Virus record (IMG/VR): IMGVR_UViG_3300042863_001365
Coordinates: 1 to 59,114 of that record
DNA from: a virus
Strand: one strand, 5' to 3'
DNA: 59,114 bases
Every line of letters starts with the position of its first letter. Position 1 is the stretch's first letter. Position numbers and translations under genes: made by a program. The notes under the pieces are model-generated. The model ran no database searches and had not been told where the DNA came from. It saw nothing but the letters and a program-made list of their open reading frames with translations. Shown here one piece after another: positions 3,239-24,141 of this stretch.

Positions 3239-4648
3239 CTAACCAACTAACTTATCATAAGATATTGTTCCACGACGACCATCATCTGTCCTAATTACAA
3301 TTCTATCTAAATTAGTGTTTTTAACAACAGTTACTACTATACCGTTCTGCAATGTAAACACAGAACCAACTGACACTTTTCTTTGCTTTGCAGCTATATT
3401 ATTAAGTTCATCAGGACGATAAGTAGATAAGTATCTATTATAAATGTCTCTGTCACTCTTTAATTTATTTTCCGCTTCGGGCCAAGCATTTTTCAGAATC
3501 CTATTGATATACTGATATATCAAATTAGGTTTTCCATCTGATAGTAACATATCTTCATAATGTTTAATTCTTTTATTTTTTAGTTTTTCAATAAAATAAA
3601 ACATTGAAATATACTTTATATTCGCGTTGTGATCATCACCCCAATCATAAGTTTTAATATCTGTACCTATATCAGATAACAAATAATTTTCTATTTCATC
3701 TAACTTTCCATCCGTTACAGATTTTATATTAGTAAGCCAAAATGGATCAGATTTAATAAGATTTAAAATTATGTCAGATGGAAATTCAAAATAACCAGTA
3801 GGGAAATACAAACTAGTAGTATTTTTATAATTATCTAATACATATTGATGAACTGCCTTTTTATCAAGTTTAGAAACTTCATATTTATCTTTCTTTATTC
3901 TGGCAAGTAATCCAGCATTAGATTCCTTATTATCTATAACCTCAACAAGATTAAATGAATCTTTTTTCAAAAATACCGCCTGATTAGGCTCATTCTCATG
4001 AATAATACTTTTACCACTATCATATACTAAATCGTATCGTAATACCACTCGTAAAAGATAATTCCATAATACACTTGATGGGTGTGCTTTATTATTTGTA
4101 GACGTTCTATTTCGTCTTTTTGTATTAGCAGCAATATCTTTACTTAATTTTCTGGTTACATTCCATATGTTCTTACCCCAATCAGTTCCATGTTCAGCAG
4201 CATCCGCAACAATAAGTTCAAACATTCGCTCATCATTATATACTTTAATATAATAATCTCGTAATGCAGCAATGTCGTCACTATAATCCGTTTCATCATA
4301 AGAATCAAAGTTTAATACTCGCTGGCCTTTTTTCATTATTAAAACATTTATATAAGGGGCATCCCCAACAAACGGAACAAGAATTTTATTAAGTTTTTCA
4401 AAACTAGCAGAATAATCACTAAGAGGATAACAATAAATTCCTACAGGAGTATAGTAAATACTACTAGGATTAATTCCTATTTTAGATATACTTGTAAAAC
4501 TAATATAAACATTTTCTGGATAAGAACCATACTTAGATTTTAACCAAGACGCATCCCAATACTTTTTTAACTTATCTATATTACTAGAACGTTGTTGTGA
4601 CGGATGCTCGCTATTTCTACGTGCCTCATGTAATTCATAATATCTCAT
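3239..4648 (-). CDS. Large putative internal virion protein, paralogue of 891..2435
   Basis: A 469-residue protein starting MRYYELHEAR, a leader with an L-H-E site. Shared blocks with the 891..2435 product: KIGINPSSIYYTPVGIYCYP, GDAPYINVL, DETDYSDDI, GKNIWNVTRK and IIHENEPNQAVFL, in the same order. The C-terminus ends in an SH3-like stretch, VGSVFTLQNGIVVTVVKN. Between the shared blocks the two proteins have diverged a great deal, and one WPEAE unit remains. The function is unknown. Late expression and packaging in the head are inferred from the leader and the AATAAATA box 25 bases upstream. Confidence 0.7.
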   Translation of the reverse strand: MRYYELHEARRNSEHPSQQRSSNIDKLKKYWDASWLKSKYGSYPENVYISFTSISKIGINPSSIYYTPVGIYCYPLSDYSASFEKLNKILVPFVGDAPYINVLIMKKGQRVLNFDSYDETDYSDDIAALRDYYIKVYNDERMFELIVADAAEHGTDWGKNIWNVTRKLSKDIAANTKRRNRTSTNNKAHPSSVLWNYLLRVVLRYDLVYDSGKSIIHENEPNQAVFLKKDSFNLVEVIDNKESNAGLLARIKKDKYEVSKLDKKAVHQYVLDNYKNTTSLYFPTGYFEFPSDIILNLIKSDPFWLTNIKSVTDGKLDEIENYLLSDIGTDIKTYDWGDDHNANIKYISMFYFIEKLKNKRIKHYEDMLLSDGKPNLIYQYINRILKNAWPEAENKLKSDRDIYNRYLSTYRPDELNNIAAKQRKVSVGSVFTLQNGIVVTVVKNTNLDRIVIRTDDGRRGTISYDKLVG

Positions 4649-6950: not shown

Positions 6951-7454
6951 TTACAGAGTGCTACGATATTTGCGAAGAGTTTTGTTCATTTCGGCAATGC
7001 AGAAATATTTCATCTGCAAATATGCCAGCAGGTTTTTGCGTTCTTTTTTCATAGTGCGACCAGTGATATTGAAAAGAATTTCATCAATAATCGGATCAAG
7101 TTCAAATTCAATATAAGCATTCAGTTTGGCCCGAGCATGATAAGACATTTTAATTTCTTTGCTCAGACCACGGGTATTTCCAGTATATTTTTCAGTACGA
7201 TGCTTATACGCATCATGCGGAATATAATATTCTGCCGAGATAGGATTACCATGATATTTTTTATTGTTGCCAGACACCATGATAACCATACGCCAGATAT
7301 ATGCGGCAATACCGTTTTCAGGTTTGACCGTGCGGATATACGTTCCGCTTTTATTCTTTGAAACAATTTGCGAAACGATTTCGCTTTGTTTGGTAGTCAA
7401 TGCCATTGCGTCGATATTGACAGTTGGCATTTTATTGAAGATATTCGGATTCAT
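6951..7454 (-). CDS. Early protein, paralogue of 20784..21242
   Basis: The start is set at the ATG after CAGGAAAACAAG (167 residues). It aligns by eye with the 20784..21242 product: MPTVN versus MPAVN, SQIVSK versus SKVVAK, RTVKPENGIAAYIWRMV versus RASKPADGPAAYVWRMV, Y-KHRTEK versus Y-AHRTDK, and ELDPIIDEI versus ELDPIVDKI. The shared WRMV block and ELDPI block define an unnamed family with two copies in this genome, one in each early region. No catalytic motif is evident. It begins a three-gene run with 6757..6939 and 6581..6745. Confidence 0.7.
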   Translation of the reverse strand: MNPNIFNKMPTVNIDAMALTTKQSEIVSQIVSKNKSGTYIRTVKPENGIAAYIWRMVIMVSGNNKKYHGNPISAEYYIPHDAYKHRTEKYTGNTRGLSKEIKMSYHARAKLNAYIEFELDPIIDEILFNITGRTMKKERKNLLAYLQMKYFCIAEMNKTLRKYRSTL

Positions 7455-7495
7455 TCTTGTTTTCCTGTTTTGCGGATTGCTGCACGACAAAGTAA

Positions 7496-7547
7496 CAAAC
7501 AAATAAATTTTATAGTATTATGGGGGGATTTAATTATTCCCCCCATA
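7496..7547. repeat. 52-bp perfect direct repeat, copy 1 (contains terminator)
   Basis: Identical to 7903..7954. It starts CAAACAAATAAATTTTATAG and ends with the hairpin ATGGGGGGA/TCCCCCCAT. The two copies lie at the 3' ends of two neighbouring minus-strand genes, so a gene plus terminator may have been duplicated. Confidence 0.9.
7520..7546 (-). terminator. Terminator of 7552..7863
   Basis: Nine-bp stem ATGGGGGGA/TCCCCCCAT with a nine-base loop, five bases after the stop codon. On the minus strand it is followed by an AT-rich tract. Confidence 0.75.
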
Positions 7548-8644: not shown

Positions 8645-8983
8645 TCAGAGATATTCGGGGCCAGTCCAGCGAACCCATGAAAAATCTTGATCAATGATAT
8701 TGCCACGGGCTTTATTTTTCGCAGGTGCGGCGAACGATGCAGCCTTGAGGATGTCGCCACGTTTGAATTTATCATCGGTATCTTTGACGATGAATCCCCA
8801 GACAGAGTTTTCCCGAATAATTTTGATATATTTTTTGCCATCGGTGTATGACAATGAATTATTAAATTCACTGATCATCTTGCGATTAACTTCGCTCAAA
8901 TCGGATTCATTCCGACCCAGCAGAGTCATTGCATAATAATCAGCACGGATTTTGTCCAACAGTGTATTGAGTTCGGTTTCCAT
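8645..8983 (-). CDS. Early protein, possible paralogue of 21288..21686
   Basis: A 112-residue protein starting METELNTLLDKI after the site GGAGCGAATC. Its C-terminal half (GKKYIKIIREN, FKRGDILKAA, ARGNIIDQDFSWVRWTGP) matches the spacing of SKKYTKIITLN, FKEGDILLPE and YGNVILKNYVANWHRP in the 21288..21686 product. I therefore treat the two as diverged copies of one early-gene family. The function is unknown. The promoter at 9015..9043 lies directly upstream. Confidence 0.65.
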   Translation of the reverse strand: METELNTLLDKIRADYYAMTLLGRNESDLSEVNRKMISEFNNSLSYTDGKKYIKIIRENSVWGFIVKDTDDKFKRGDILKAASFAAPAKNKARGNIIDQDFSWVRWTGPEYL

Positions 8984-9014
8984 GATTCGCTCCATTGTGT
9001 TTCAACTTGACCGA

Positions 9015-9299: not shown

Positions 9300-9313
9300 T
9301 TTATTTTCACCTT

Positions 9314-9580
9314 TCAGAGATTGTAAGCGATTGCAGATTGTTCCGAGTAGTCTTCCTCATAGCTTGCCGAACCATCTGCACCAAGTGTCAGTACAGGTTC
9401 AACCCAATTAGTGCGGCGATCAAGATAAGAAACCTTGATCGTATCGTATCCGCCAAAGCCGCAGCGAACATATTGCATTGCCCAACGAATAGCCTCATTC
9501 TGCGATTCGCTAGAAAACAATGCAATATCATCGCCAAGTGATTTAGTATTAGTCACACCCCACACAGTAAACATTGTCAT
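9314..9580 (-). CDS. 88-residue early hypothetical protein
   Basis: The start is placed at the ATG after GGAGCGAATC, giving MTMFTVWGVTNTKSLGDD. It includes a Trp-Gly-Val segment and SQNEAIRWAMQYVR, a helix typical of small phage adapter-like proteins. The leader is the same CACAATGGAGCGAATCATG as in 8645..8983 and 11741..11992. It is transcribed from 9611..9639, with 9057..9299 downstream. Confidence 0.6.
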   Translation of the reverse strand: MTMFTVWGVTNTKSLGDDIALFSSESQNEAIRWAMQYVRCGFGGYDTIKVSYLDRRTNWVEPVLTLGADGSASYEEDYSEQSAIAYNL

Positions 9581-9610
9581 GATTCGCTCCATTGTGATCC
9601 GTTGCACTAA

Positions 9611-9639
9611 TCATTAAAGTTTTCACAACACACTGTCAA
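9611..9639 (-). promoter_or_regulatory. Sigma70-type promoter TTGACA-17-TAATGA
   Basis: Minus strand. A second TTGACA lies 11 bases further upstream. It overlaps the 3' end of the 9636..9887 gene and drives 9314..9580 and 9057..9299. Confidence 0.7.
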
Positions 9640-9887
9640 CCCCCTGTCAACAAAAATTCTTTTATTGATACCTCATAACTAGCAGAATCATATGACAATG
9701 TTAACTTAAACTCTATCAGATTAGTATCATTACCTAATACCATACATTCTCCCAGATGAATAAAACCACAGCGAGTTAGAGTAGGTGCTATATTATTACG
9801 CCATAATGACATTGACATTATATAATAAACTGGAAGATATGGTGCCGTTGCACCCTTTAGCATTACACCTATAACATAATGGGTCAT
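9636..9887 (-). CDS. Member of the small 'EF-LT' paralogue family (divergent)
   Basis: An 83-residue protein starting MTHYVIGVMLKG, with the family pattern in its second half: a cysteine/glycine segment CGFIHLGECMVLGNDTNLIEFKLTLSYDS and a final VSIKEFL. The block G-N-D-T-N-L-I-E-F-K-L-T corresponds to YGSDDILAEFLLT in the upstream neighbour. Its ATG overlaps that gene's TGA (ATGA). Role unknown. Family members also lie at 14179..15098. Confidence 0.6.
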   Translation of the reverse strand: MTHYVIGVMLKGATAPYLPVYYIMSMSLWRNNIAPTLTRCGFIHLGECMVLGNDTNLIEFKLTLSYDSASYEVSIKEFLLTGG

Positions 9888-10105
9888 TTTATCTCAACAA
9901 ATCTAACATTCAGGTGTTGCGTATAAGTTAATAGAAATTCTGCTAATATATCATCGCTACCATAATAGTAATCAAAATATGGGTGATCATTATATCCACC
10001 ACAATTAATCCAATGTTGTGATATATGATCTAAAAATAATGGACCCATATCTAATCGAATAAAACTATATTTTTTACTATATTGTTGTCTGATATGGCGT
10101 TTCAT
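9884..10105 (-). CDS. Member of the small 'EF-LT' paralogue family
   Basis: 73 residues starting MKRHIRQQYSKKY. The family signature is clear: HWINCGG, then YYYGSDDILAEFLLTYTQ, then a C-terminal VRFVEIK. HWINCGG is identical to the segment in 14179..14424, 4 kb away. The ribosome-binding site (GGATGAATT) is weak. It lies four bases from the end of 10109..10396, so the genes are probably cotranscribed. Confidence 0.65.
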   Translation of the reverse strand: MKRHIRQQYSKKYSFIRLDMGPLFLDHISQHWINCGGYNDHPYFDYYYGSDDILAEFLLTYTQHLNVRFVEIK

Positions 10106-10108
10106 AAT

Positions 10109-10396
10109 TCATCCAACATATCCATCAATATAGGGAACCAATCCATCACAAAACACCATTGGCAATTCGTAATCAATAATCCATTCACCCTTACGAATCC
10201 GAGCAAATTGAATATTATAAAGATCAAGTCCCATATCATATTGAATATAAACATAACATTTACGTTTAACCAATCCGCTAGATTTGAATTTCAATCCATC
10301 ACTCATATAAACAATATCTTTCGCACCCCATGCCGCCATAGCACGACGATCAAGTGTATTAATCTGCCCTAAGATAGTCGCACCGATAGTGTTCAT
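10109..10396 (-). CDS. 95-residue early hypothetical protein
   Basis: Start set at the ATG after GGAGAATATC, giving MNTIGATILGQINTLDRRAM. The body alternates short beta strands (KRKCYVYIQYDM, IQFARIRKGEWIIDYELP). No family recognised. A 9-bp hairpin lies in the leader (10418..10442). Confidence 0.6.
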   Translation of the reverse strand: MNTIGATILGQINTLDRRAMAAWGAKDIVYMSDGLKFKSSGLVKRKCYVYIQYDMGLDLYNIQFARIRKGEWIIDYELPMVFCDGLVPYIDGYVG

Positions 10397-10417
10397 GATA
10401 TTCTCCATATGATGAAT

Positions 10418-10442
10418 AGCCACAATCATTATAATTGTGGCT
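10418..10442 (-). terminator. Hairpin between 10452..10658 and 10109..10396
   Basis: Perfect 9-bp stem AGCCACAAT/ATTGTGGCT with a seven-base loop, placed 10 bases after a stop codon and 22 before the next start. It has no T run, so it may be a weak terminator or a leader structure. Confidence 0.5.
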
Positions 10443-10451
10443 ATAATAAGA

Positions 10452-10658
10452 TCAGATTGTCAAATAAGGATGACCAATATCCAGAACATCGGTTTCATCC
10501 GCTTCACACATCGGATAAAGCATATCATTGGCATCAGGATCAACCAACGAATAAAATTCTGCAACACCCGACACATAAATTGTTACATCGCAATTCTTTT
10601 GCCTGTCAGACATAGTTGCAATGAACTTTTCCAAGTCACGATACGTTACGTTAGCCAT
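10452..10658 (-). CDS. 68-residue early hypothetical protein
   Basis: Starts MANVTYRDLEKFIATMSDRQ after GGAGCGAATC. The sequence NCDVTIYVSGVAEFYSL followed by an acidic tail with GHPYLTI resembles small phage proteins of unknown role. It is preceded by the promoter 10688..10715. Confidence 0.65.
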   Translation of the reverse strand: MANVTYRDLEKFIATMSDRQKNCDVTIYVSGVAEFYSLVDPDANDMLYPMCEADETDVLDIGHPYLTI

Positions 10659-10687
10659 GATTCGCTCCTATGATCATCACTAAGTGG

Positions 10688-10715
10688 AATCTATCATATC
10701 ATGTGTTACTGTCAA
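10688..10715 (-). promoter_or_regulatory. Sigma70-type promoter TTGACA-16-TAGATT
   Basis: Minus strand, 30 bases upstream of the gene starting at 10658. A GANTC (GATTC) overlaps the -10 region. Confidence 0.55.
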
Positions 10716-11554
10716 GATGTCTTGTCAAAAATTCTCTATCCATATGATGAACATTATGATACTAGAATCATGATGATACTTGATTTCGTGTTACTCAATC
10801 AAGTATTGATATTAGATAATATACTTCGGAATAAATCCTCAGTATATTATCAATATCTATTTTTTAAGATTCTAATACTCTATCTTCTTTTAACATCATT
10901 ACAGAGGAAGACATACTTAGCCCGCTAAGGCCAAGTATATCCCCCAACTATAATAATAAATTATTACGTCGTGTGACACCTAATACAGATCAACCTTGTA
11001 ATGTCAGGTTAGGGCGGTCATGCTGTACCCCTTTATGATCTACTTTTTGACGCAAGCGTAATATACCGTATTAGGAAGCATATAACACTTTGTTGGTTGC
11101 AACTTGTGAACAGAGCCAACTCATTTTGTAGGTTAGTCAATCCCACTACTAAACTAACTTTTAATAAATTAAAAGCGTAGCACAACAACTTCCATCCACC
11201 ATAGCAATTCAATGTATCTGTAGATTCGTCGCGGATATATTCCTATATCATATCGCTACTATGCAGTAAACTTATGACAGCCCAATGATTCGAAATCATT
11301 CTCCTGACTCAATCAGTATGACATAAAATATACCCAAAATCAAGTGAAAAAATAATCAAAAATAATCCAATCTTTTTGTAACCCATTGATTTCATTATAT
11401 AATTTATTTTAGAAATAATAAAAATTATTGTTTAGAATCAATGAGTTACAAGGTTTTTATTAAAATGTATGAATCTTACTGTGTATATACCCATCAAAAT
11501 GAGCAAAAATGTTAAAAAATGAAAATTCGCAATATTTTGGCATAATTTATCCAC
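10716..11554. other. Gene-free stretch of about 840 bases
   Basis: No reading frame with a credible start and ribosome-binding site was found on either strand. The stretch holds a perfect inverted repeat AATGATT-TCG-AATCATT at about 11289-11306 (with TGATTCG) and an AGATTCG near 11223. Promoters point into the region from the right (11684..11713) and away from it (11555..11582). I looked for tRNA T-arm and acceptor patterns and could not complete one. It may encode untranslated RNA. Confidence 0.45.
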
Positions 11555-11582
11555 TTGACAGCATAATGCGAATCAGTATAGA
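11555..11582 (+). promoter_or_regulatory. GcrA-motif promoter TTGACA-16-TATAGA
   Basis: Plus strand, with GCGAATCA at the promoter-proximal end of the spacer. It points toward a short frame at 11586 and then to the 3' end of a convergent gene. Confidence 0.65.
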
Positions 11583-11585
11583 GTT

Positions 11586-11657
11586 ATGATAGAAACCGCA
11601 CAGATGATCATCGACGCGATAGGAGCATGGCTTCGGGGGAATCTGTCCAAAAAATAA
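11586..11657 (+). CDS. Possible 23-residue peptide
   Basis: A short frame, MIETAQMIIDAIGAWLRG..., begins within a few bases of the predicted transcription start of promoter 11555..11582 and would be amphipathic. There is no ribosome-binding site, so it would be translated as a leaderless or near-leaderless message. The transcript may equally be an untranslated RNA. Confidence 0.25.
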   Translation: MIETAQMIIDAIGAWLRGNLSKK

Positions 11658-11683
11658 AATAAAGAATAGAATTCCCCATCACC

Positions 11684-11713
11684 TCAATACACTATCGAAT
11701 CATAGTGTGTCAA
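11684..11713 (-). promoter_or_regulatory. GcrA-motif promoter TTGACA-18-TATTGA
   Basis: Minus strand, with TGATTCG inside the spacer. It lies 27 bases after the stop of 11741..11992 and points leftward into the gene-free region. The -10 is imperfect (TGTATT with a 16-base spacer is an alternative). Confidence 0.55.
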
Positions 11714-11740
11714 GCAGAATAATAAAAATAGTATGCTGCC

Positions 11741-11992
11741 CTATTGGGCAACACACTCACCCGACATTTTTGTATCACTATACAATTCATTCACTTTATC
11801 ATCAGTCAGATCAATCCATGCCACCTTGTTTTTGAAATATGTTTTCGTATATGTTTTATCATTTTCCAAATCAACTACAATCGCCATATAATAATCATTG
11901 TAAATGTAAAGACCCATTGACTTAGATGCATCGCCATCATGATAAAACATATAAACCATATTCGGAAAAATTGTCACTGACTTGATCTGCAT
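11741..11992 (-). CDS. 83-residue early hypothetical protein
   Basis: Starts MQIKSVTIFPNMVYMFYHDG at the ATG of the repeated leader CACAATGGAGCGAATCATG. A longer frame passing through the upstream terminator is rejected. Beta-rich body (MGLYIYNDYYMAIVVDLEN) and an acidic end. No function recognised. Confidence 0.65.
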   Translation of the reverse strand: MQIKSVTIFPNMVYMFYHDGDASKSMGLYIYNDYYMAIVVDLENDKTYTKTYFKNKVAWIDLTDDKVNELYSDTKMSGECVAQ

Positions 11993-12064
11993 GATTCGCT
12001 CCATTGTGTCTAGCCTGTTACCCTTATAGTCAAAAGATTCTACCATGTAAACCCCCAAAATGAG

Positions 12065-12086
12065 TGGAAGCCCCCGTAGGGGCTTC
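12065..12086 (-). terminator. Terminator of the DUF2786 gene
   Basis: Nine-bp stem GGAAGCCCC/GGGGCTTCC with a CGTA loop, 12 bases after the stop. Nearly identical to the hairpin at 8594..8611. Confidence 0.8.
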
Positions 12087-12098
12087 CATAGTGTGATA

Positions 12099-12824
12099 TC
12101 AGTATGCGGCAATCTGCCTTGCACCTTGCGAAGTTTCTGCACGGGAAAGTGAAACCTTGCTGCCTGCATTTTGACCAGCACGATATGCCGAACCATCGTT
12201 GATCACAATTTTCGTCGCCGTTCCCTTTTTAAGATGAATATTCACTTGACGCTGATATTCTTCCGTAACCATCTGATTCTTCAAGATAATCAGCGATGTG
12301 CCGCCACTTGCACGAGTCTCGCTTTTAAGATCACGCAAACGCTGATTGATACGATTTGCCATGCCAACCATAAAAGATTTGCGAATAGTCCGCTTATGGC
12401 CCACATCAGTCAACGAATTGGAATAAACAGCCCATTCCCATTCCATCGCACGAAACAAAACTTCACGAATAAACTTTGCCGTTTCAACATCGGCGGCATA
12501 TCCAAAGAAATTGATATTCACGCCCGTCTTGATCGAACCAGCATACTCTTTATTCTGCCACACTTTGACGCCGCAAAATTCTGCAACAGTGGCGATGCAA
12601 TACAAATCAGCTTCATGCAGATTCTTGCGACCATCACGCACAACTTCACGCAAGAAATCTTTGGCTGCAGCGGTGTTTGCCAGAATGTCGGCTTCAGTAA
12701 CACCATGTTCATCCATCAGCTTTTGAGCAATACGCAATGCTGCCATTGCTTCCGCTTCAGTAGCACCGTTGGAAGTCTTTTTGTTCAACAATGCTGCAAT
12801 CTTGGCCTTGATAGCTTCCGACAT
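12099..12824 (-). CDS. DUF2786 domain protein
   Basis: A 241-residue protein. Residues 1-45 (IAALLNKKT, NGATEAEAMAALRIAQKLMDEHG) match the DUF2786 domain, which is common in bacteria, plasmids and phages and has no established activity. The remainder contains CIATVAEFCGVKVW, a GYAADVETAKFI segment and a basic R-S-F-M-GMANRI helix, as in the C-terminal domain that usually accompanies DUF2786. The start at 12824 follows GGAGATCGCAAA, where the GGAG could sit in the loop of a GCGA/TCGC hairpin. A GcrA-motif promoter lies upstream. Confidence 0.8.
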   Translation of the reverse strand: MSEAIKAKIAALLNKKTSNGATEAEAMAALRIAQKLMDEHGVTEADILANTAAAKDFLREVVRDGRKNLHEADLYCIATVAEFCGVKVWQNKEYAGSIKTGVNINFFGYAADVETAKFIREVLFRAMEWEWAVYSNSLTDVGHKRTIRKSFMVGMANRINQRLRDLKSETRASGGTSLIILKNQMVTEEYQRQVNIHLKKGTATKIVINDGSAYRAGQNAGSKVSLSRAETSQGARQIAAY

Positions 12825-12860
12825 TTTGCGATCTCCATGTTTCGCGTTTCCTTAGACATA

Positions 12861-12889
12861 GAACTACAGCATGATTCGCATAGTGTCAA
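12861..12889 (-). promoter_or_regulatory. GcrA-motif promoter TTGACA-17-TAGTTC
   Basis: Minus strand, perfect -35, with GCGAATCA in the spacer and a weak -10. Thirty-seven bases upstream of the DUF2786 gene. Confidence 0.7.
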
Positions 12890-12909
12890 GCGTTGTTTTG
12901 CTTTTTCAC

Positions 12910-13080
12910 CTATGCACTCGCACGGCCCATAACATACACTTTATACATATCTTGCCGTTCCATCGTATTAGACAAAAACAAATCATAATGAGGATGATTG
13001 CGAAAGTTTGAACGAATCATAGCATCAAAATCAGCCAATACAATGGCAGAATAAAACAAATCACGATAACGCTGGTTCAT
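12910..13080 (-). CDS. 56-residue early hypothetical protein
   Basis: Starts MNQRYRDLFYSAIVLADFDAM after the strong site TTGGAGGCAACT. Aromatic and Arg-rich, with no recognised domain. The leader contains TGATTCG, and a TTGACA-17-TAGACT promoter precedes it. Confidence 0.6.
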   Translation of the reverse strand: MNQRYRDLFYSAIVLADFDAMIRSNFRNHPHYDLFLSNTMERQDMYKVYVMGRASA

Positions 13081-13107
13081 AGTTGCCTCCAATATCGAAT
13101 CATTGTC

Positions 13108-13136
13108 AGTCTATCAATATAAATAAGGGTTGTCAA
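13108..13136 (-). promoter_or_regulatory. Sigma70-type promoter TTGACA-17-TAGACT
   Basis: Minus strand, 28 bases before the start at 13080. A TGATTCGATATT segment downstream could serve as a second initiation element. Confidence 0.65.
13118..13125 (+). promoter_or_regulatory. T4-type late promoter TATAAATA
   Basis: Exact T4 late -10 box on the plus strand, 60 bases before the GIY-YIG gene. It overlaps the minus-strand sigma70 promoter, so early and late transcription diverge from the same bases. Confidence 0.5.
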
Positions 13137-13184
13137 TCGCGGACCCGCATCCCATTGACTCTATATTTGTAAGGAAATACAGCA

Positions 13185-13673
13185 ATGAATATTTATTATG
13201 ATACTACTCCATATTTTTATGTCATAGAAGATGTAAGAAATGGTAAAAAGTATGCAGGAAGTAGATGGAGAAAAGGATGCCATCCTTCTGAATTATTAAG
13301 AGAGAAAAATGGATACTATACATCATCTAAAGAAGTTAATAAAATTATCAAAGAACACGGATTACTCGTCTTTAGAATAGTTAAAATAAAAGAATGCAAA
13401 AACAAAGATGCGGTTTATGCATATGAAACTGATTATCTTACAGAAAAAGATGCCGCTACTAATAATCTCTATTACAACAAACATAATAACGATTACTCAA
13501 CGTTGCAATATAAGGGGAACCGTAAAGTTGTAAACGATATAAACAAGTATAAAGACCACTTTAACCTAAAACTTAATAAGTTCGGATTAAAAGGCGGATG
13601 GTGGCAAAAGACTGATGAAGATTTATTATATGTATTAGAACGTATTATACTTGCATTCGGTGAAATCAAATGA
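13185..13673 (+). CDS. GIY-YIG-like endonuclease
   Basis: 162 residues. The N-terminus FYVIEDVRNGKKYAGSRW fits the GIY-YIG fold, with YVI and YAG at the two signature positions. NGYYTSSKEVNKIIKEHG, a basic segment and an E-T-D-Y-L block then fit the catalytic arginine/glutamate region. The element YYNKHNN resembles the usual end of the domain in phage Seg-type homing enzymes. Free-standing homing nucleases are common in T4-type phages. The stop overlaps the convergent 13666..14049 gene. The ribosome-binding site is AAGGAAATACAGC. Confidence 0.7.
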   Translation: MNIYYDTTPYFYVIEDVRNGKKYAGSRWRKGCHPSELLREKNGYYTSSKEVNKIIKEHGLLVFRIVKIKECKNKDAVYAYETDYLTEKDAATNNLYYNKHNNDYSTLQYKGNRKVVNDINKYKDHFNLKLNKFGLKGGWWQKTDEDLLYVLERIILAFGEIK

Positions 13674-14049
13674 TAATTCCATAAAAATCATTGTCGTCAT
13701 ATATGGTTTCGACTTCTTCAACAATTTCTGCGACCCTAAATTTGGTTCTAAGGTATTCTTTTAACTTAACTTCAGCTTCTTCTAATACATATATTTTATC
13801 ATCATGTATTCCACCGAATGTATTATTTGTTTCTTTATACTTTTTAAGGTGTTTTCTAACAAAAATTAAAAAATTTACCGATGCATCTATACTTAAATCT
13901 AAATTTTGACGTTTTTGCTGCCCATAATAACTTTTAGATTTCCCTAAATAAATTTGAGAAAAATCGTTTGTGCTAGTTACTAAACCTACATCTAAAAAAT
14001 TTTGGGCTAAATAATACATTAAACGCTGCTTAAATTCTTCCGCTGCCAT
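13666..14049 (-). CDS. Conserved phage hypothetical protein
   Basis: A 127-residue protein starting MAAEEFKQRLMYYLAQNFLD, with IYLGKSKSYYGQQKRQ in the middle, a motif I associate with a small protein family in T4-like phages. The second half is a charged helix followed by an acidic tail. A GATAAATA late box lies 82 bases upstream. Role unknown. Confidence 0.6.
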   Translation of the reverse strand: MAAEEFKQRLMYYLAQNFLDVGLVTSTNDFSQIYLGKSKSYYGQQKRQNLDLSIDASVNFLIFVRKHLKKYKETNNTFGGIHDDKIYVLEEAEVKLKEYLRTKFRVAEIVEEVETIYDDNDFYGIII

Positions 14050-14130
14050 AGTGCCTCACATCCTGAAAAATACCGTTTTTTGAACGGGGTAAATCATACG
14101 ATTCAATATATTTTAATCATATGACCATAA

Positions 14131-14138
14131 TATTTATC
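14131..14138 (-). promoter_or_regulatory. T4-type late promoter GATAAATA
   Basis: Minus strand, upstream of 13666..14049 and directly after the terminator of the early operon that ends at 14179. Confidence 0.4.
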
Positions 14139-14140
14139 AT

Positions 14141-14175
14141 AATTCCTACACGTTTATTATTATTGTGTAGGAATT
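14141..14175 (-). terminator. Terminator of the 15265-14179 operon
   Basis: Perfect 11-bp stem AATTCCTACAC/GTGTAGGAATT with a 13-base AT loop, starting four bases after the last stop codon of the array. Confidence 0.75.
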
Positions 14176-14178
14176 ACA

Positions 14179-14424
14179 TTAACGAGGTATTTGTTCACTG
14201 AATTCTATTATATTATAATTGGGTTGTGTAAGTTTGAATTGTGTTAATATGTAATCATTTCCCTGCCATATAAATGGATACGGTTGATTCATAAATGAAA
14301 GACTTATATCTCCACCACAATTAATCCAGTGTTTTGCCATAGTATCATACATATCTCTATAGTGGTGTCTTGATAGTTGATATGTATGAAAACTTACATA
14401 ATATGTTTTTAATTTATTATTCAT
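14179..14424 (-). CDS. Small 'EF-LT' family paralogue, array member 1
   Basis: 81 residues starting MNNKLKTYYVSFHTYQ. It carries KHWINCGG, then IWQGNDYILTQFKLTQP and IIEFSEQ. This is the shared pattern: aromatic residue, W-I/E-x-C/L-G-G, about 15 variable residues, G-S/N/T-D-x-I-L/M-x-E/Q-F-x-L-T, short gap, I-x-E. It ends a compact operon of four paralogues. No catalytic residues are conserved across the family, so a binding role is more likely than an enzymatic one (inference). Confidence 0.65.
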   Translation of the reverse strand: MNNKLKTYYVSFHTYQLSRHHYRDMYDTMAKHWINCGGDISLSFMNQPYPFIWQGNDYILTQFKLTQPNYNIIEFSEQIPR

Positions 14425-14660
14425 TGTATTATTTCTTTAATGGTTAAGCAATATGAGTATTGATAAGTTAATATAAACTCTGTCATGATTTCATTTGATC
14501 CGGCAAGATACAGTCCATGTGTTTCTGGTATTATTCCGCCTAGTTCTTTCCAATAGTCTATTATATGATCTTCTTGTGCCCATGATTTAATATATGTAAA
14601 ATTATTTTTTATATCTGGTAAGAAGTCTTGTATTATTGTTACATAATATATTTTGTTCAT
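14421..14660 (-). CDS. Small 'EF-LT' family paralogue, array member 2
   Basis: 79 residues starting MNKIYYVTIIQDFLPD. Signature: DYWKELGGI, YLAGSNEIMTEFILTYQ, LTIKEI. It overlaps the next gene by four bases (ATGA). Closest in layout to array member 3, with the same MNK-x-Y N-terminus and IKEI C-terminus. Confidence 0.65.
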   Translation of the reverse strand: MNKIYYVTIIQDFLPDIKNNFTYIKSWAQEDHIIDYWKELGGIIPETHGLYLAGSNEIMTEFILTYQYSYCLTIKEIIQ

Positions 14661-14884
14661 TATGTGATTTCTTTAATATTAACATATTGTGCGTAAGTGT
14701 ATGTTAGCATAAACTCTATTAGGATTTCATCACTTCCGTATATATAATGGAATGCGTTATCATATATTCCACCCAATGATTCCCAATGTTCGACTGCATG
14801 ATAGTATGGTTTATATTGATTACGATAATTTATCTGCATTGGCAGGAAGAATTTTGTTGTTATGAGTTCATATGTTTTATTCAT
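14660..14884 (-). CDS. Small 'EF-LT' family paralogue, array member 3
   Basis: 74 residues starting MNKTYELITTKFFLPMQ. Signature: EHWESLGGI, YIYGSDEILIEFMLTYTY, VNIKEI. Its stop shares a base with the start of the following gene. Confidence 0.65.
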   Translation of the reverse strand: MNKTYELITTKFFLPMQINYRNQYKPYYHAVEHWESLGGIYDNAFHYIYGSDEILIEFMLTYTYAQYVNIKEIT

Positions 14885-15098
14885 TTACTTCACTTATTGA
14901 CAGATGTGGTGATATTGGGTATATTAATAAAAATTCCATTAGTATATCATCGGTTCCATATAAGTGTGAGCAATCGTTGTTTTCTCTAATACCTCCTAAG
15001 TGTTCCCAACATATTTGTATTGTGATCATATCTGATACTAGTTCGAGGTAATCTATTATTGGTAAATATTTATTTCGATAAATTTTATATTTTTTCAT
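14877..15098 (-). CDS. Small 'EF-LT' family paralogue, array member 4
   Basis: Start set at the ATG after GGGAATA, giving MKKYKIYRNKYLPIID (73 residues). Signature: CWEHLGGI, LYGTDDILMEFLLIYP, LSISEV. Its ATG overlaps the stop of the 55-residue gene upstream (TAATG). It is first of the four tandem paralogues in the transcript. Confidence 0.65.
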   Translation of the reverse strand: MKKYKIYRNKYLPIIDYLELVSDMITIQICWEHLGGIRENNDCSHLYGTDDILMEFLLIYPISPHLSISEVNE

Positions 15099-15265
15099 TA
15101 TTCCCACACGGTTTTATTAACATTGGGCCATTTGTTTTTGATACGGGTCATATTATCATCATACCAAGTAGTATCACGATTAAGTTTTTGGATGAGTTCT
15201 TTCATTTTTTTAGTATTATGGTAGCTTTGGATATCATATTTCCAAGCGGTCATTTTCATATCCAT
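15098..15265 (-). CDS. 55-residue hypothetical protein leading the array
   Basis: Starts MDMKMTAWKYDIQSYHNTKK and ends NKWPNVNKTVWE, charged and Trp-rich. It lacks the family signature of the genes behind it. The start is supported by GGATAATACAAA upstream and by the one-base stop/start overlap with the next gene. It is first in the operon, 30 bases from the predicted transcription start. Confidence 0.55.
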   Translation of the reverse strand: MDMKMTAWKYDIQSYHNTKKMKELIQKLNRDTTWYDDNMTRIKNKWPNVNKTVWE

Positions 15266-15374: not shown

Positions 15375-15596
15375 ATGTATTATTTGGTTTCTTATGATTC
15401 AGATCGGTGGAAGCATATGCTTGGAATGCGATATTATCACAACAGACTATTAATTGAAGCAGTTATAAAATATGAAATTTATTATGAATATGATAATGAT
15501 GAATTAACGCTTATTGGTTCTGTTAGTGAGATTGCTGAATTTTTGTTATTAGTAGTGATGCCGTTTGAATTTAGATTATGTTGTGTTATTGATTAA
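15375..15596 (+). CDS. 73-residue protein, possible distant 'EF-LT' relative
   Basis: Starts MYYLVSYDSDRWKHMLGMRY. The middle holds a Tyr/Asp-rich stretch, then LIGSVSEIAEFLLLVVMP, which resembles the G-S-x-x-I-x-E-F-L-L core of the tandem array on the other strand. The W-x-x-LGG segment is missing, so the relationship is tentative. The leader has TATGGAG. Confidence 0.5.
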   Translation: MYYLVSYDSDRWKHMLGMRYYHNRLLIEAVIKYEIYYEYDNDELTLIGSVSEIAEFLLLVVMPFEFRLCCVID

Positions 15597-20193: not shown

Positions 20194-20449
20194 TCATGCA
20201 TGGCGTGGATTGTTTAATCTGCCGCATGTAGGACCACATCCGGGTATATTTTGGGTTATATTTATTATATTTTTGACAGGATTAGCTGGTATTATTCGTG
20301 GTGGTATTATTGGTTTTATTGGTGCAATTATGCTTGGGTGTTTAATTTATATTCCAATGTTGATAATTGGAAGTATTGATCGCAGTAAAACAAGTGATCG
20401 CATTGAGCGTAGGCGTTATGAGCGATTTGAAGGGGCATTGTTTGAATGA
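20162..20449 (+). CDS. Small membrane protein, two transmembrane segments
   Basis: 95 residues: a cytoplasmic-type N-terminus containing a WRGLFNLPHVGPHPG segment, then hydrophobic stretches FWVIFIIFLTGLAGII and FIGAIMLGCLIYIPMLII separated by a short RGG turn, and a charged tail RRRYERFEG. The layout could suit an early membrane-acting protein such as a superinfection-exclusion factor. That is a guess from topology. It is overlapped by both neighbours. Confidence 0.65.
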   Translation: MIVPEKRSTFSHAWRGLFNLPHVGPHPGIFWVIFIIFLTGLAGIIRGGIIGFIGAIMLGCLIYIPMLIIGSIDRSKTSDRIERRRYERFEGALFE

Positions 20450-20754
20450 TGAGTAGTAAATTTATTATCAAAGAATATAGTATTGTTCTTTATCCTAAGA
20501 CTAATAACTTTAATAATATAAAAAATGCAGTTGATTATAGTAAATTTTTGTTAGAGCGTGAACTGTATATTATTGATTTGCGTAGTGTATTGTGTGAATG
20601 CGGATTTGAGCATATATCAACTACGCTGAGTGATTTATATTATCGTGGCACCGATAGTGCGGTTGCACTATTTTGGTTAACTTATAGTAGTCCGTTATTA
20701 GATCACATGGAAATACAGTTTGAATCATTCTTGCGTAGCTATAATGTAAAATAA
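20446..20754 (+). CDS. 102-residue early protein, possibly 'EF-LT'-related
   Basis: Starts MMSSKFIIKEYSIVLY, with an ATGA overlap to the membrane-protein gene. The end has LYYRGTDSAVALFWLTYSSP followed by MEIQFESFL, comparable in place and spacing to YGSDDI..EF-LTY...I-E of the small paralogue family, but with F-W in place of E-F. The N-terminal half is longer than in that family. Terminated by 20756..20779. Confidence 0.55.
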   Translation: MMSSKFIIKEYSIVLYPKTNNFNNIKNAVDYSKFLLERELYIIDLRSVLCECGFEHISTTLSDLYYRGTDSAVALFWLTYSSPLLDHMEIQFESFLRSYNVK

Positions 20755-20783: not shown

Positions 20784-21242
20784 TTATCCATAGATTGCTT
20801 GTTTCCAACGTTGGGCACCACGCCATTGTTCTTTTGGAATGGTGTCGATGATTTTATCAACGATTGGATCAAGTTCTTGTTTCATGTATTGGCGGCGGCA
20901 TTCGCTGTTATTCATCATGGCAATACGATCAGGAGTCAGATTTGCCACATAATCTTTATCATTTTGTGTTTCACAACTCCACACAAATTTGTCGGTGCGA
21001 TGAGCATAGTCGGTTTTGTTGACATAAAAATCTGCCCCAACAGGCATACAATGATGCTGCGAATGTGGGCTAACAATAAATGCAACCATCCGCCACACAT
21101 ATGCAGCAGGACCATCAGCAGGCTTGCTAGCACGAAGTCGGTTCACGCCGCCACGTTTTGCGACGACTTTTGAAACAATGTCCATATCGTTGACCGACAA
21201 GACTGTTTTCAAGATTTCAAGGTTGACAGCAGGCATTTCCAT
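20784..21242 (-). CDS. Early protein, paralogue of 6951..7454
   Basis: 152 residues starting MEMPAVNLEILKTVLSVND. It shares MP-x-VN, KP-x-x-G-x-AAY-V/I-WRMV, Y-x-HRT-x-K and ELDPI-x-D with the 6951..7454 product, but has a different C-terminus (EQWRGAQRWKQAIYG). A GcrA-motif promoter lies 40 bases upstream, whereas its paralogue lies inside a run without that element nearby. Confidence 0.7.
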   Translation of the reverse strand: MEMPAVNLEILKTVLSVNDMDIVSKVVAKRGGVNRLRASKPADGPAAYVWRMVAFIVSPHSQHHCMPVGADFYVNKTDYAHRTDKFVWSCETQNDKDYVANLTPDRIAMMNNSECRRQYMKQELDPIVDKIIDTIPKEQWRGAQRWKQAIYG

Positions 21243-21281: not shown

Positions 21282-21310
21282 TTCATATCAGTGATTCGCT
21301 GGCAGGTCAA
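21282..21310 (-). promoter_or_regulatory. GcrA-motif promoter TTGACC-17-TATGAA
   Basis: Minus strand, with GCGAATCA in the spacer. It overlaps the last codons of the 21288..21686 gene and drives 20784..21242. Confidence 0.75.
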
Positions 21311-21686
21311 GTGGCCTATGCCAGTTTGCCACATAATTTTTCAATATGACATTTCCGTATGTTTTGTCGTAATATGGTTGTCTATGAAATTCTGGTAAAA
21401 GTATATCACCTTCTTTGAAATCTTTTCCAAACCGATCACAATCATAATTTAATATAAAACTATGAACAATAGGTATTCGGAATAGTTTATTCAGTGTAAT
21501 AATTTTTGTATATTTTTTGGATGATGTTCTGTCTATTTTTAATGATTTTTCAAACCGCTGTTTCATTCTTTCCAGATTGGCAGTAGGTAAGTGATCAACC
21601 GGAGTATTTTCAATATAATTATAAAAATCTTTTTTAATGTATTCTACATAATCTTTAATATAATATGATATATGTTTGTCGTTCAT
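21288..21686 (-). CDS. Early protein, possible paralogue of 8645..8983
   Basis: 132 residues starting MNDKHISYYIKDYVEYIKKD. The ATG follows GGGAATAATA. The pattern SKKYTKIITLN, FKEGDILLPEF, YGNVILKNYVANWHRPLDL corresponds in order and spacing to the C-terminal half of 8645..8983. The similarity is modest and rests on about 12 aligned positions. The function is unknown. Confidence 0.6.
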   Translation of the reverse strand: MNDKHISYYIKDYVEYIKKDFYNYIENTPVDHLPTANLERMKQRFEKSLKIDRTSSKKYTKIITLNKLFRIPIVHSFILNYDCDRFGKDFKEGDILLPEFHRQPYYDKTYGNVILKNYVANWHRPLDLPANH

Positions 21687-21688
21687 TA

Positions 21689-22090
21689 TTATTCCCAAAA
21701 TTGAATACTTGCAAAGAAGTCTGCTTCACTATATAGCTGATTCAATTCTTTGTCACCTTCATTTATACTTTCTCTTATGACATTTACTGTTACACGGTTG
21801 TTTGTATCTGCATGTATCCTGACATACCCATAACGAGCAATAAGAACACCACCAACCACATTTTTGTTGGGATATTCTATATCAATGTGAGCCATTTGTG
21901 GTTTTTTCAAATTAATGACTCGTAGTAACTTGTCAGCATCTTTTATTGGTTTTTTAGTATATGGTTTGCCTACGCTGTTGTTTATTATTCGCGTAACTGT
22001 ATATCCTTTATCAAATATCAATTTGAAAAAAGCTATTGTTTTTGGATCAATAGCGTATGAGTTCTTTGAATATTTATTTTTATATGCCAT
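21689..22090 (-). CDS. 'EA-F' array family member
   Basis: 133 residues. Start set at the ATG after GGAGAATATA (MAYKNKYSKNSYAID). The C-terminus LNQLYSEADFFASIQFWE shows the family pattern L-x-x-E-A-x-F-F/L-x-x-I. The N-terminal helix, KGYTVTRIIN strand and a glycine-turn-strand segment (NVVGGVLIARYGYVRIH) recur in looser form in four genes at 22.8-24.1 kb. No known domain. Confidence 0.6.
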   Translation of the reverse strand: MAYKNKYSKNSYAIDPKTIAFFKLIFDKGYTVTRIINNSVGKPYTKKPIKDADKLLRVINLKKPQMAHIDIEYPNKNVVGGVLIARYGYVRIHADTNNRVTVNVIRESINEGDKELNQLYSEADFFASIQFWE

Positions 22091-22119
22091 TATATTCTCC
22101 ATTATTATTTTAATAGATT

Positions 22120-22143
22120 AAAGCGGGGATTGCTCCCCGCTTT
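22120..22143. terminator. Terminator of 22151..22720
   Basis: Perfect 10-bp stem AAAGCGGGGA/TCCCCGCTTT with a TTGC loop, seven bases from the stop codon. Confidence 0.85.
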
Positions 22144-22150
22144 GTGTGGA

Positions 22151-22720
22151 TCATTCTGTATACACAGAAACATCTTCATTTTCAAAGAAACTGAAAATGC
22201 TAATGTCTGCCATATCCCAGACATAATGACGTTTATAGTAGTCATCTTTAATTTTGTTGATGAAGTTATGAGTTACCGCAGGAAAAATAACATCACTAAA
22301 GAAATAGCGGCGAGAACCATGCCCGCTAGTGATCCAATCATATTCGCGGGCCAGTTCGCCACGATATGCAATGTCTTTCCCAAAGGTGGGAAAAGCACGA
22401 TCATTCACCAGAAACCAGATATGCCCGCCACGGTCATACCAAATATGAAAGTAAAATTCATCTTCACGATTTTCTTCATAGGTGAGCGGATTGCCATCAT
22501 CATCCATGTCTTCGACCATAACAAATTCGTTATAGGTAAGACTGATCCGAACCTGATGGTGAAGAATTTTGTGGACGGAAGCGTTTTCTGTTGCAAAATT
22601 GAAGTGATGCCGAGAATTATAAAAATCCTCAATTACTTTCAAGACTTGCTTGAGATCATGTAGTGCAAGATTTTGCTCTGGTGTTGCATTATCCAGATGA
22701 GTAACATGAAGACGACCCAT
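22151..22720 (-). CDS. 189-residue early hypothetical protein
   Basis: Starts MGRLHVTHLDNATPEQNLAL after TTGGAGAATCACT. It contains EENREDEFYFHIWYDRGGHIW and RRYFFSDVIFPAVTHNFINK, many aromatic and acidic residues, and an acidic C-terminus FFENEDVSVYTE. GC-richer codons than the array beside it. It has its own promoter and terminator, so it is an independent unit. No domain recognised. Confidence 0.65.
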   Translation of the reverse strand: MGRLHVTHLDNATPEQNLALHDLKQVLKVIEDFYNSRHHFNFATENASVHKILHHQVRISLTYNEFVMVEDMDDDGNPLTYEENREDEFYFHIWYDRGGHIWFLVNDRAFPTFGKDIAYRGELAREYDWITSGHGSRRYFFSDVIFPAVTHNFINKIKDDYYKRHYVWDMADISIFSFFENEDVSVYTE

Positions 22721-22752
22721 AGTGATTCTCCAACTGTTGCGAGTATAATCAT

Positions 22753-22781
22753 AAATTACACCAACTAGATCACTGTGTCAA
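22753..22781 (-). promoter_or_regulatory. Sigma70-type promoter TTGACA-17-TAATTT
   Basis: Minus strand, 32 bases before the start at 22720. It overlaps the 3' end of 22770..23147. Confidence 0.7.
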
Positions 22782-23147
22782 TCCATTATTTTCAACATCA
22801 TATAGTTCAATATTAAGTAAGAACTCTGCCTCGCAAAATAATTCTAATGCATCTGTTCGTGCATCGGCTGGAATCTGGTGTGGCGTATATGCAACACAAT
22901 CGGGTTCAAATGAATAGATAAATTCAAATTTTCTATAATGAACTCCACAACAAAATTTAATTATACCAGATTTGAATTTATTAGTTGAACCAATAAATGT
23001 ATTAAAATTATCTAGTGTTACTTTATGGTTTATTGTGGTAGACTTATATATTGTATTAATAATAACAGCATTTTTTACTGATTTATTCAAGAATAATTTA
23101 ACCATCGCCCACATTTGTCGTTGTATTGGTTCAACTTGATTATTCAT
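22770..23147 (-). CDS. 'EA-F' array family member
   Basis: 125 residues starting MNNQVEPIQRQMWAMVKLFL. C-terminal LELFCEAEFLLNIELYDV is the family signature. The central part IIKFCCGVHYRKFEFIYSFEPD is the variable beta region. Last gene of the 24331-22770 transcript. Confidence 0.6.
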   Translation of the reverse strand: MNNQVEPIQRQMWAMVKLFLNKSVKNAVIINTIYKSTTINHKVTLDNFNTFIGSTNKFKSGIIKFCCGVHYRKFEFIYSFEPDCVAYTPHQIPADARTDALELFCEAEFLLNIELYDVENNGLTQ

Positions 23148-23149
23148 AT

Positions 23150-23452
23150 TTAATATCCAATATCTGTAAGAAATTGTGCTTCTGTAAGTAATTCCGCACC
23201 TTTGTAAGGTTTAATAGTATTTTTAGAAATATCATATTCATAATATCCAACACGGGTTTTTTTATCAGGCTCAATTAAAAAAACAATTGAATGGGAATAT
23301 GATTTGTAATTTTCACGAATATATTGATAGTCGGTTGTTTCTTCGATTTGCATACGATAATTTCTTCCTGATCTGAACTCAATAGCGTATTGTTTATCTA
23401 CTGCGAGCCGCAATAGATTTTTCAATACTTTTTGTGTATTATTTTGTGCCAT
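23150..23452 (-). CDS. 'EA-F' array family member
   Basis: 100 residues starting MAQNNTQKVLKNLLRLAVDK. The ATG overlaps the end of the upstream gene by 14 bases and follows AGGATTTTTTGAAA. Signature at the very end: AELLTEAQFLTDIGY. Central strands RVGYYEYDI match RIGSVAFDYRV-type strands in the next gene. Confidence 0.6.
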   Translation of the reverse strand: MAQNNTQKVLKNLLRLAVDKQYAIEFRSGRNYRMQIEETTDYQYIRENYKSYSHSIVFLIEPDKKTRVGYYEYDISKNTIKPYKGAELLTEAQFLTDIGY

Positions 23453-23792
23453 TTTCAAAAAATCCTATATTTTTGAAAAATAAAACTTCTTTATGTAATA
23501 ATTCCATTTTATCTTTTAAGTATGGATATGCGGTATTTGTGACCGGACGTACAGTAAATTCAGTACGCGACACACGATAATCAAATGCGACTGATCCTAT
23601 ACAATCTACTCTATTATAATAAATGCAAAATGATCCTGCCACACAATCGTTGATCATCTTTTTCATTAATTTAATATTTTCGGTGTATCGTTCTTTATTG
23701 GTAATGCTATTGACTACACTAACCCCATAGCGTTCACGTTTACACAATTCTGCATAGACATACAGCATTTTACGCACATCATTGAGTTGCAT
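23439..23792 (-). CDS. 'EA-F' array family member
   Basis: 117 residues starting MQLNDVRKMLYVYAELCK. It has ERYGVSVVN near residue 21, a central CIGSVAFDYRVSRTEFTV and the C-terminal signature MELLHKEVLFFKNIGFFENG. It overlaps both neighbours. No known domain. Confidence 0.6.
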   Translation of the reverse strand: MQLNDVRKMLYVYAELCKRERYGVSVVNSITNKERYTENIKLMKKMINDCVAGSFCIYYNRVDCIGSVAFDYRVSRTEFTVRPVTNTAYPYLKDKMELLHKEVLFFKNIGFFENGTK

Positions 23793-24141
23793 CAGCAAGC
23801 ATCCCCATATTATCCAAGTTTTCTATTTCTTCAAAAACTAAAAGTAATTCTTGATTAAATTCAATGATTGTATAATTTCCATCAATATGTTCGCCATAAT
23901 TAATTTCAGAACTTACATATTCTAGAATACCAATTTTATTAAATGGTATTCTTGGATTATAGATATTAATTGTGCAATATTCAATTGTATTCAAAATTTC
24001 AAATAAATCTTGATACGATATATCATACGAGAATAAAATTTGTTTATTATGGTTATTATTTTCTATTACTTCGATTATATATTTCTTTTGAATCAAAATA
24101 TAAACATACTTTTCAAAATGTTGATTATTATTCGTTGGCAT
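23779..24141 (-). CDS. 'EA-F' array family member (divergent)
   Basis: 120 residues starting MPTNNNQHFEKYVYILIQKK. The strand pattern KKYIIEVIENN, then FNKIGILEYV, is kept. The C-terminal signature is degraded to NQELLLVFEEIENLDNMGM. The ribosome-binding site GGTGGAATT lies inside the upstream gene. Confidence 0.55.
   Translation of the reverse strand: MPTNNNQHFEKYVYILIQKKYIIEVIENNNHNKQILFSYDISYQDLFEILNTIEYCTINIYNPRIPFNKIGILEYVSSEINYGEHIDGNYTIIEFNQELLLVFEEIENLDNMGMLADATQ

Follow-up and report, generated by a model that had tools for sequence, protein, structure and literature searches.

A family of small, diverged proteins with a predicted ferredoxin-like fold in the accessory region of a probable jumbo myovirus genome fragment

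Seven small related proteins, about 73-102 amino acids (aa) in length, are identified here by profile comparison within a 59,114-base stretch of viral DNA, IMG/VR virus record IMGVR_UViG_3300042863_001365 (the entire stretch analyzed, termed here the window). The account that we favor, with a probability of roughly 0.4, is that these are small single-domain ferredoxin-like proteins, made mostly from operons of probably coupled genes and bearing copy-specific surfaces, which would bind other proteins stoichiometrically, plausibly host or defense targets. At minimum, they define a small-protein family that is new and whose predicted fold can be tested, and they show that one locus differs in copy content between related jumbo phages; the family is, moreover, a sensible starting point in a search for proteins that block host or defense functions.

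The window divides into an accessory region with genes mostly on the minus strand (1 to ~29.4 kb) and a structural/replication block on the plus strand. Its terminase shares 54% identity with the terminase of PA5oct-type jumbo phages, 99-100% with those of several other IMG/VR fragments, and 74% with that of a related phage (IMG/VR contig IMGVR_UViG_3300037780_000034; 317,722 bases), termed here G006. Based on these identities, the window very probably represents part of a jumbo myovirus genome, the source phage being T4-like and a distant relative of PA5oct; hence, more family copies may exist outside of the window. The near-identical contigs L003-L007 are either short or (in the case of L004) apparently do not reach the array described below, as judged by position. 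Around the family genes are other small accessory genes of unknown function, several being paralogous, on the strand opposite to that of the structural block. The family genes and adjacent features are as follows, where each core member's E value is that at which it is recovered by a profile of the other four core members:

9636..9887, minus strand: 83-aa diverged member, CGF subtype; 4-nt overlap between its start and the end of the 9884 gene; G006 ortholog at L085:9939-10199
9884..10105, minus strand: 73-aa core member, 3 nt past the ORF-B stop; E 9e-15
10109..10429, minus strand: ORF-B, 106 aa, conserved neighbor heading the 9884-9636 operon; 57-58% identity to G006 9580-9870
14141..14175, minus strand: 11-bp perfect hairpin (AATTCCTACAC/GTGTAGGAATT) directly past the last array gene, lacking a T-run; possibly a transcript-end element
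14179..14424, minus strand: 81-aa core member that ends the array; E 6e-5
14421..14660, minus strand: 79-aa core member; E 2e-12
14660..14884, minus strand: 74-aa core member with a predicted ferredoxin-like fold (pLDDT 83.6); E 2e-16
14877..15098, minus strand: 73-aa core member, first family gene of the array (ATG at 15098); E 8e-11
15098..15265, minus strand: ORF-A, 55-aa conserved neighbor heading the array; its stop overlaps the 14877 start (TAATG); 48% identity to G006 10626-10829
15375..15596, plus strand: 73-aa candidate, membership not established; GS-x5-EF-x-L motif only
20446..20754, plus strand: 102-aa distant member, CGF subtype; E 1e-4 with an enlarged profile

All six of the open reading frames (ORFs) from which a sequence-only reading of this DNA had proposed the family (9636, 9884, 14179, 14421, 14660 and 14877) are present, and for every member the codon score is positive in the gene's own frame alone, each of the other frames scoring negative. 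(The 14877 ORF has a length of 73 aa when counted from the ATG at 15098; an alternative GTG occurs at 15107.) Within the array the order is ORF-A, 14877, 14660, 14421 and 14179, with successive overlaps of 1, 8, 1 and 4 nt; the second operon consists of ORF-B followed by the 9884 gene (after a 3-nt gap) and by the 9636 gene (with a 4-nt overlap). The corresponding start/stop pairs are 15098/15098, 14877/14884, 14660/14660 and 14421/14424 in the array and 9884/9887 in the second operon. Start/stop overlaps between neighboring genes usually mean translational coupling and, because the array genes overlap by 1-8 nt, they are probably coupled in this way. ORF-B has weak PHROG matches only (phrog_9437, E 4e-4). 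Directly downstream of the array (13666-14049) is a DUF6626 protein (Pfam E 2e-6, above the curated cut-off), and at 12099-12824 is a DUF2786/DUF7168 protein (phrog_421) whose gene has a GC content of 0.46, versus about 0.36 around it, and whose G006 ortholog (44% identity) lies elsewhere, on L086.

That the 9884, 14179, 14421, 14660 and 14877 products form a homologous family is placed beyond doubt by profile comparison. Pairwise phmmer E values between these core members reach 8e-12 (2e-10 for the 9884 versus 14660 products). In a leave-one-out analysis, in which a profile built from four core members is used to search for the fifth, all five are recovered with E values from 6e-5 to 2e-16, whereas the best E value among five sets of shuffled decoys is 0.12. 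The proteins are short and the genome is AT-rich, properties that might suggest spurious ORFs or chance similarity, but for the core five this reading is already refuted by the leave-one-out E values, a conserved ortholog, synteny and coding scores.

The signature had been attributed to all six products, but the 9636 product has TLTRCGF instead of W-x-x-[CL]GG and matches the five-member core profile with an E value of only 0.004. In G006 its ortholog (41% identity, E 4e-17) has an E value of 0.014 with the core-five profile, improving to 3.5e-8 when the 9636 product is added to that profile, and both proteins have the G-x-D, EF-x-LT and V-x-IKE positions. The 9636 product is therefore classified as a diverged family member (termed the CGF subtype), a membership resting largely on the G006 ortholog. 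Two more distant candidates had been suggested, at 15375 and 20446, of which the second is upheld. The 20446 product, marginal with the first profiles, is found at E 1e-4 by a nine-member profile that excludes it and includes the G006 homologs, and it shares 48.6% identity across 35 aa with G006 9942-10205; these comparisons make it a distant member of the CGF subtype. The 15375 product has no significant match to either the core or the enlarged profiles (best E about 1) and has in common with the family only a G-S-x5-E-F-x-L motif, for which the chance expectation is 0.2-0.4 in window ORFs. Because, among 404 window ORFs, the motif G[STN]x5[EQL]FxL is limited to the seven members and the 15375 product (0.4 expected by chance), the latter is still a candidate. 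The reported identity of HWINCGG in the 9884 and 14179 products is borne out by the sequence; gene conversion was considered as a source of the corresponding DNA-level identity, which looks unremarkable given codon bias.

A syntenic locus in G006 provides a view of the family's history. There the order is: an ORF-A ortholog (10626-10829), a 63-aa gene, a core member (10159-10428), the 9636 ortholog (9939-10199), an ORF-B ortholog (9580-9870) and a further member (9305-9577). Thus, as in the window, the ORF-A ortholog is upstream of family members and the ORF-B ortholog adjoins them, so that three homologs lie beside orthologs of both genes; unlike the window, G006 lacks the four-gene tandem array and its members are placed around ORF-B. 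A fourth homolog, only a weak candidate (L085:15527-15790), has as its neighbor the ortholog of the membrane-protein gene that adjoins 20446, giving three or four copies in G006 versus seven in the window. By gene order, then, the locus is common to both phages, with differing copy content. On a gene tree no branch is supported and paralogs from both phages interleave; the tree neither establishes nor rejects that the four array genes arose from one ancestor after the phages diverged (p 0.116). Given the three G006 homologs in the syntenic locus and this interleaving on the unsupported tree, some of the duplications are judged to be older than the split. The sequence-only reading had described repeated duplication with fast divergence: the seven homologous copies agree with duplication, but the excess divergence is modest, inasmuch as the best family pairs between window and G006 share 33-43% identity, as compared with 26-69% for neighboring accessory genes and 74% for the terminase.

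Other duplicated genes occur in both genomes. A second probable tandem family comprises five minus-strand genes of 102-137 aa at 21689-24141 (21689, 22770, 23150, 23439 and 23779); these have in common an L..EA.FL..I-like C-terminus, with mixed leave-one-out support (E 6e-5 to 0.5), and two of the five have G006 homologs. In G006, L085:1964-5646 contains about nine tandem genes of 'NG.VE.PDGTK.WY.NG..HR.DGPA' units (YPDGTK repeats), to which the window has one short relative (2463-2645). There are also three pairs of accessory paralogs in the window: 6951-7502 and 20784-21242 (E 3e-20), 8645-8995 and 21288-21698 (E 1e-5), and 891-2435 and 3239-4648 (E 2e-33).

Within the databases searched, and subject to the limits imposed on such searches by so short and divergent a family and by the possible absence of records very close to the window, the family is detected by sequence in these two phage lineages only. 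No convincing match was found in Pfam, PHROGs (best E 0.05), NCBIfam (two insignificant matches), PADLOC (which is a library of defense rather than of anti-defense systems) or PDB sequences, in agreement with the sequence-only reading, which knew of no described family with this signature. (A match of the 9884 product to PF10091, Glycoamylase, at E 0.005 is below the curated cut-off, is confined to that member and was taken as chance.) Single-member searches of INPHARED yielded no convincing relative; none of 31 pattern matches among GTDB species genomes was confirmed; and no family member was found by a sensitive HMM search covering most of each of 14 related jumbo contigs, or in the whole records of PA5oct, Phosso, Atu_ph07, Vibrio 2.275.O, CBB and BF, where a CBB match (E 0.036) is interrupted by three stops. 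Scans of IMG/VR contigs using family alignments, single members and a degenerate DNA motif confirmed only G006; motif matches in L104 and L105 belong to a 217-aa protein that is unrelated, and they gave no score.

Early expression of the family genes is plausible but unproven. The -35-like hexamer TTGACA occurs within 70 nt upstream of 10 of the 54 gene starts in the accessory half, as compared with 2.2 for random positions, and one copy is 34 nt upstream of the ORF-B start. A fully specified sigma70 pattern, on the other hand, is not enriched over shuffles and also matches the structural half of the window, for which reason the timing is left at this strength. No enrichment of the late promoter TATAAATA was found.

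The 14660 product, when modeled by AlphaFold2 together with ten family sequences (pLDDT 83.6, pTM 0.73; residues 31-60 averaging above 90), is predicted to be a ferredoxin-like β-α-β-β-α-β domain: strand 3-9, helix 25-36, strand 40-42, strand 47-50, helix 52-61 and strand 68-73. W34 is near the end of helix 1 and G38-G39 are in the next turn; G50-S51-D52 are at the start of helix 2, which contains F58, L60 and T61; and the I-x-E is in the last strand. Because the conserved residues of this model thus occupy helix ends, a turn, a helix cap and the last strand, the signature would be mostly explained by the fold. The members probably have one common compact fold. Structure prediction, one of the checks proposed for the family, gives a confident model for one core member; for the CGF subtype (9636 and 20446), a model from three sequences has a pLDDT of only 54.8 and a different, low-confidence topology that is not interpretable. 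Foldseek returned no PDB or viral match to the 14660 model at E 0.001 or better (all E values are above 0.1; the best matches include, weakly, Cas2). VIA-align yielded VapD (the top match, Z 6.6), S6, EF-G domains and designed ferredoxin folds at Z 5.5-6.6 over 62-72 residues, a level that, according to the tool's notes, may reflect only a common arrangement. Conserved alignment columns are for the most part glycine or hydrophobic; they include neither a shared set of catalytic-type residues nor an acidic residue conserved at strand 1; the pI varies from 4.7 to 9.1 among copies overall and from 4.7 to 7.9 (near neutral to acidic) among window members.

Stoichiometric protein binding is the most economical explanation because the proteins are small, lack a shared catalytic set, diverge outside of the fold core and vary in charge. 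The position of the genes amid small accessory genes and the detection of the family in two phage lineages only also speak for it. This explanation is grounded in homology, gene structure and G006 synteny and in the predicted fold; from these we infer coupling, protein binding and a class of target. Six copies would be made from two minus-strand operons of overlapping, probably translationally coupled genes and the seventh from the plus strand. The signature would hold the common fold together (W..[CL]G[GF] ending a helix, G-[STN]-D capping the next, EF.LT within helix 2, and I.E in the last strand), while the variable loop past strand 1 and the exposed faces would confer on each copy its specificity. 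Each copy may thus bind a protein of the host or of its defense systems, acting by occupancy rather than by catalysis; to call the family 'decoys', as in the sequence-only reading, is a guess. A recent review considers that many small uncharacterized jumbo-phage ORFs plausibly hide anti-defense proteins (PMC13282480); against the favored reading, tandem expansion here is not confined to this family, PADLOC and the other libraries contain no convincing match, and the fold prediction stems from one member. An extended version, in which the family is a diversified set of inhibitors, one ferredoxin-like scaffold having been copied and retargeted until every paralog blocks its own host defense or takeover target, with copies turning over between related jumbo phages, is unlikely as it stands; if the copies are indeed retargeted binders, then the array is a compact natural variant set on one scaffold.

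The strongest rival, because coupling would balance subunit amounts, is that the paralogs are subunits of one hetero-oligomer, pairing through edge strands or helices into a mixed ring or sheet. Both the overlapping starts and stops of the array and the predicted helix 2 (DEILIEFMLTY), which is hydrophobic on nearly all faces, fit this; the spread of copies over two operons and a plus-strand gene, and their unequal number in the two phages, do not, which leaves it a serious contender that we nevertheless doubt. That the copies are largely redundant duplicates, kept in a large genome and not diversified in their targets, accords with the multiplication of other small genes nearby, yet no copy is disrupted, all have positive coding scores, and G006 retains three to four lineages, so that we consider redundancy distinctly unlikely. 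Ferredoxin-like domains can also bind nucleic acid or small molecules, and S6 and other RNA-binding folds are among the middling structural matches (Z about 6). A role as small regulators that bind nucleic acid and act on phage or host transcripts is nonetheless improbable: such Z values are generic for so common a fold, the window members have the pI range given above, and no conserved basic patch was seen in the alignment. VapD- or Cas2-like RNases or toxins, suggested by the weak structural matches, are very improbable, as the acidic residue that ends strand 1 and defines these RNases (the D7N mutant is named in the structural match) is not conserved across the family and all Foldseek E values exceed 0.1.

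Among known systems, the favored reading of stoichiometric binding has its closest functional analogs in small phage anti-defense proteins such as Tad1, anti-CRISPRs and T4 internal proteins. These are likewise small, accessory and diverging; the analogy is one of function only, as no sequence relation was found and no N-terminal capsid-targeting peptide was recognized by eye in the family. VapD, Cas2 and ribosomal protein S6 share the β-α-β-β-α-β topology but show no significant Foldseek or sequence match, and the family lacks the conserved strand-1 acidic residue. For the jumbo phage group, a 2026 review counts a single described anti-defense protein (PMC13282480). The family itself appears to be undescribed in the sources searched, whereas lineage-specific expansion of small domains in jumbo phages is already known: Bacillus phage G has about 35 zinc-ribbon copies (PMC7824862), and arrays of more than 30 similar genes occur in jumbo phages (PMC13282480). 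As in those expansions, many copies of one small domain are found in one lineage and are taken to reflect growth by duplication; the domain here is a different one, its copies are far fewer, and they are strongly diverged rather than highly similar. In view of the zinc ribbons, of these arrays and of the other duplicated small genes nearby, the family is best regarded as another case of this known phenomenon.
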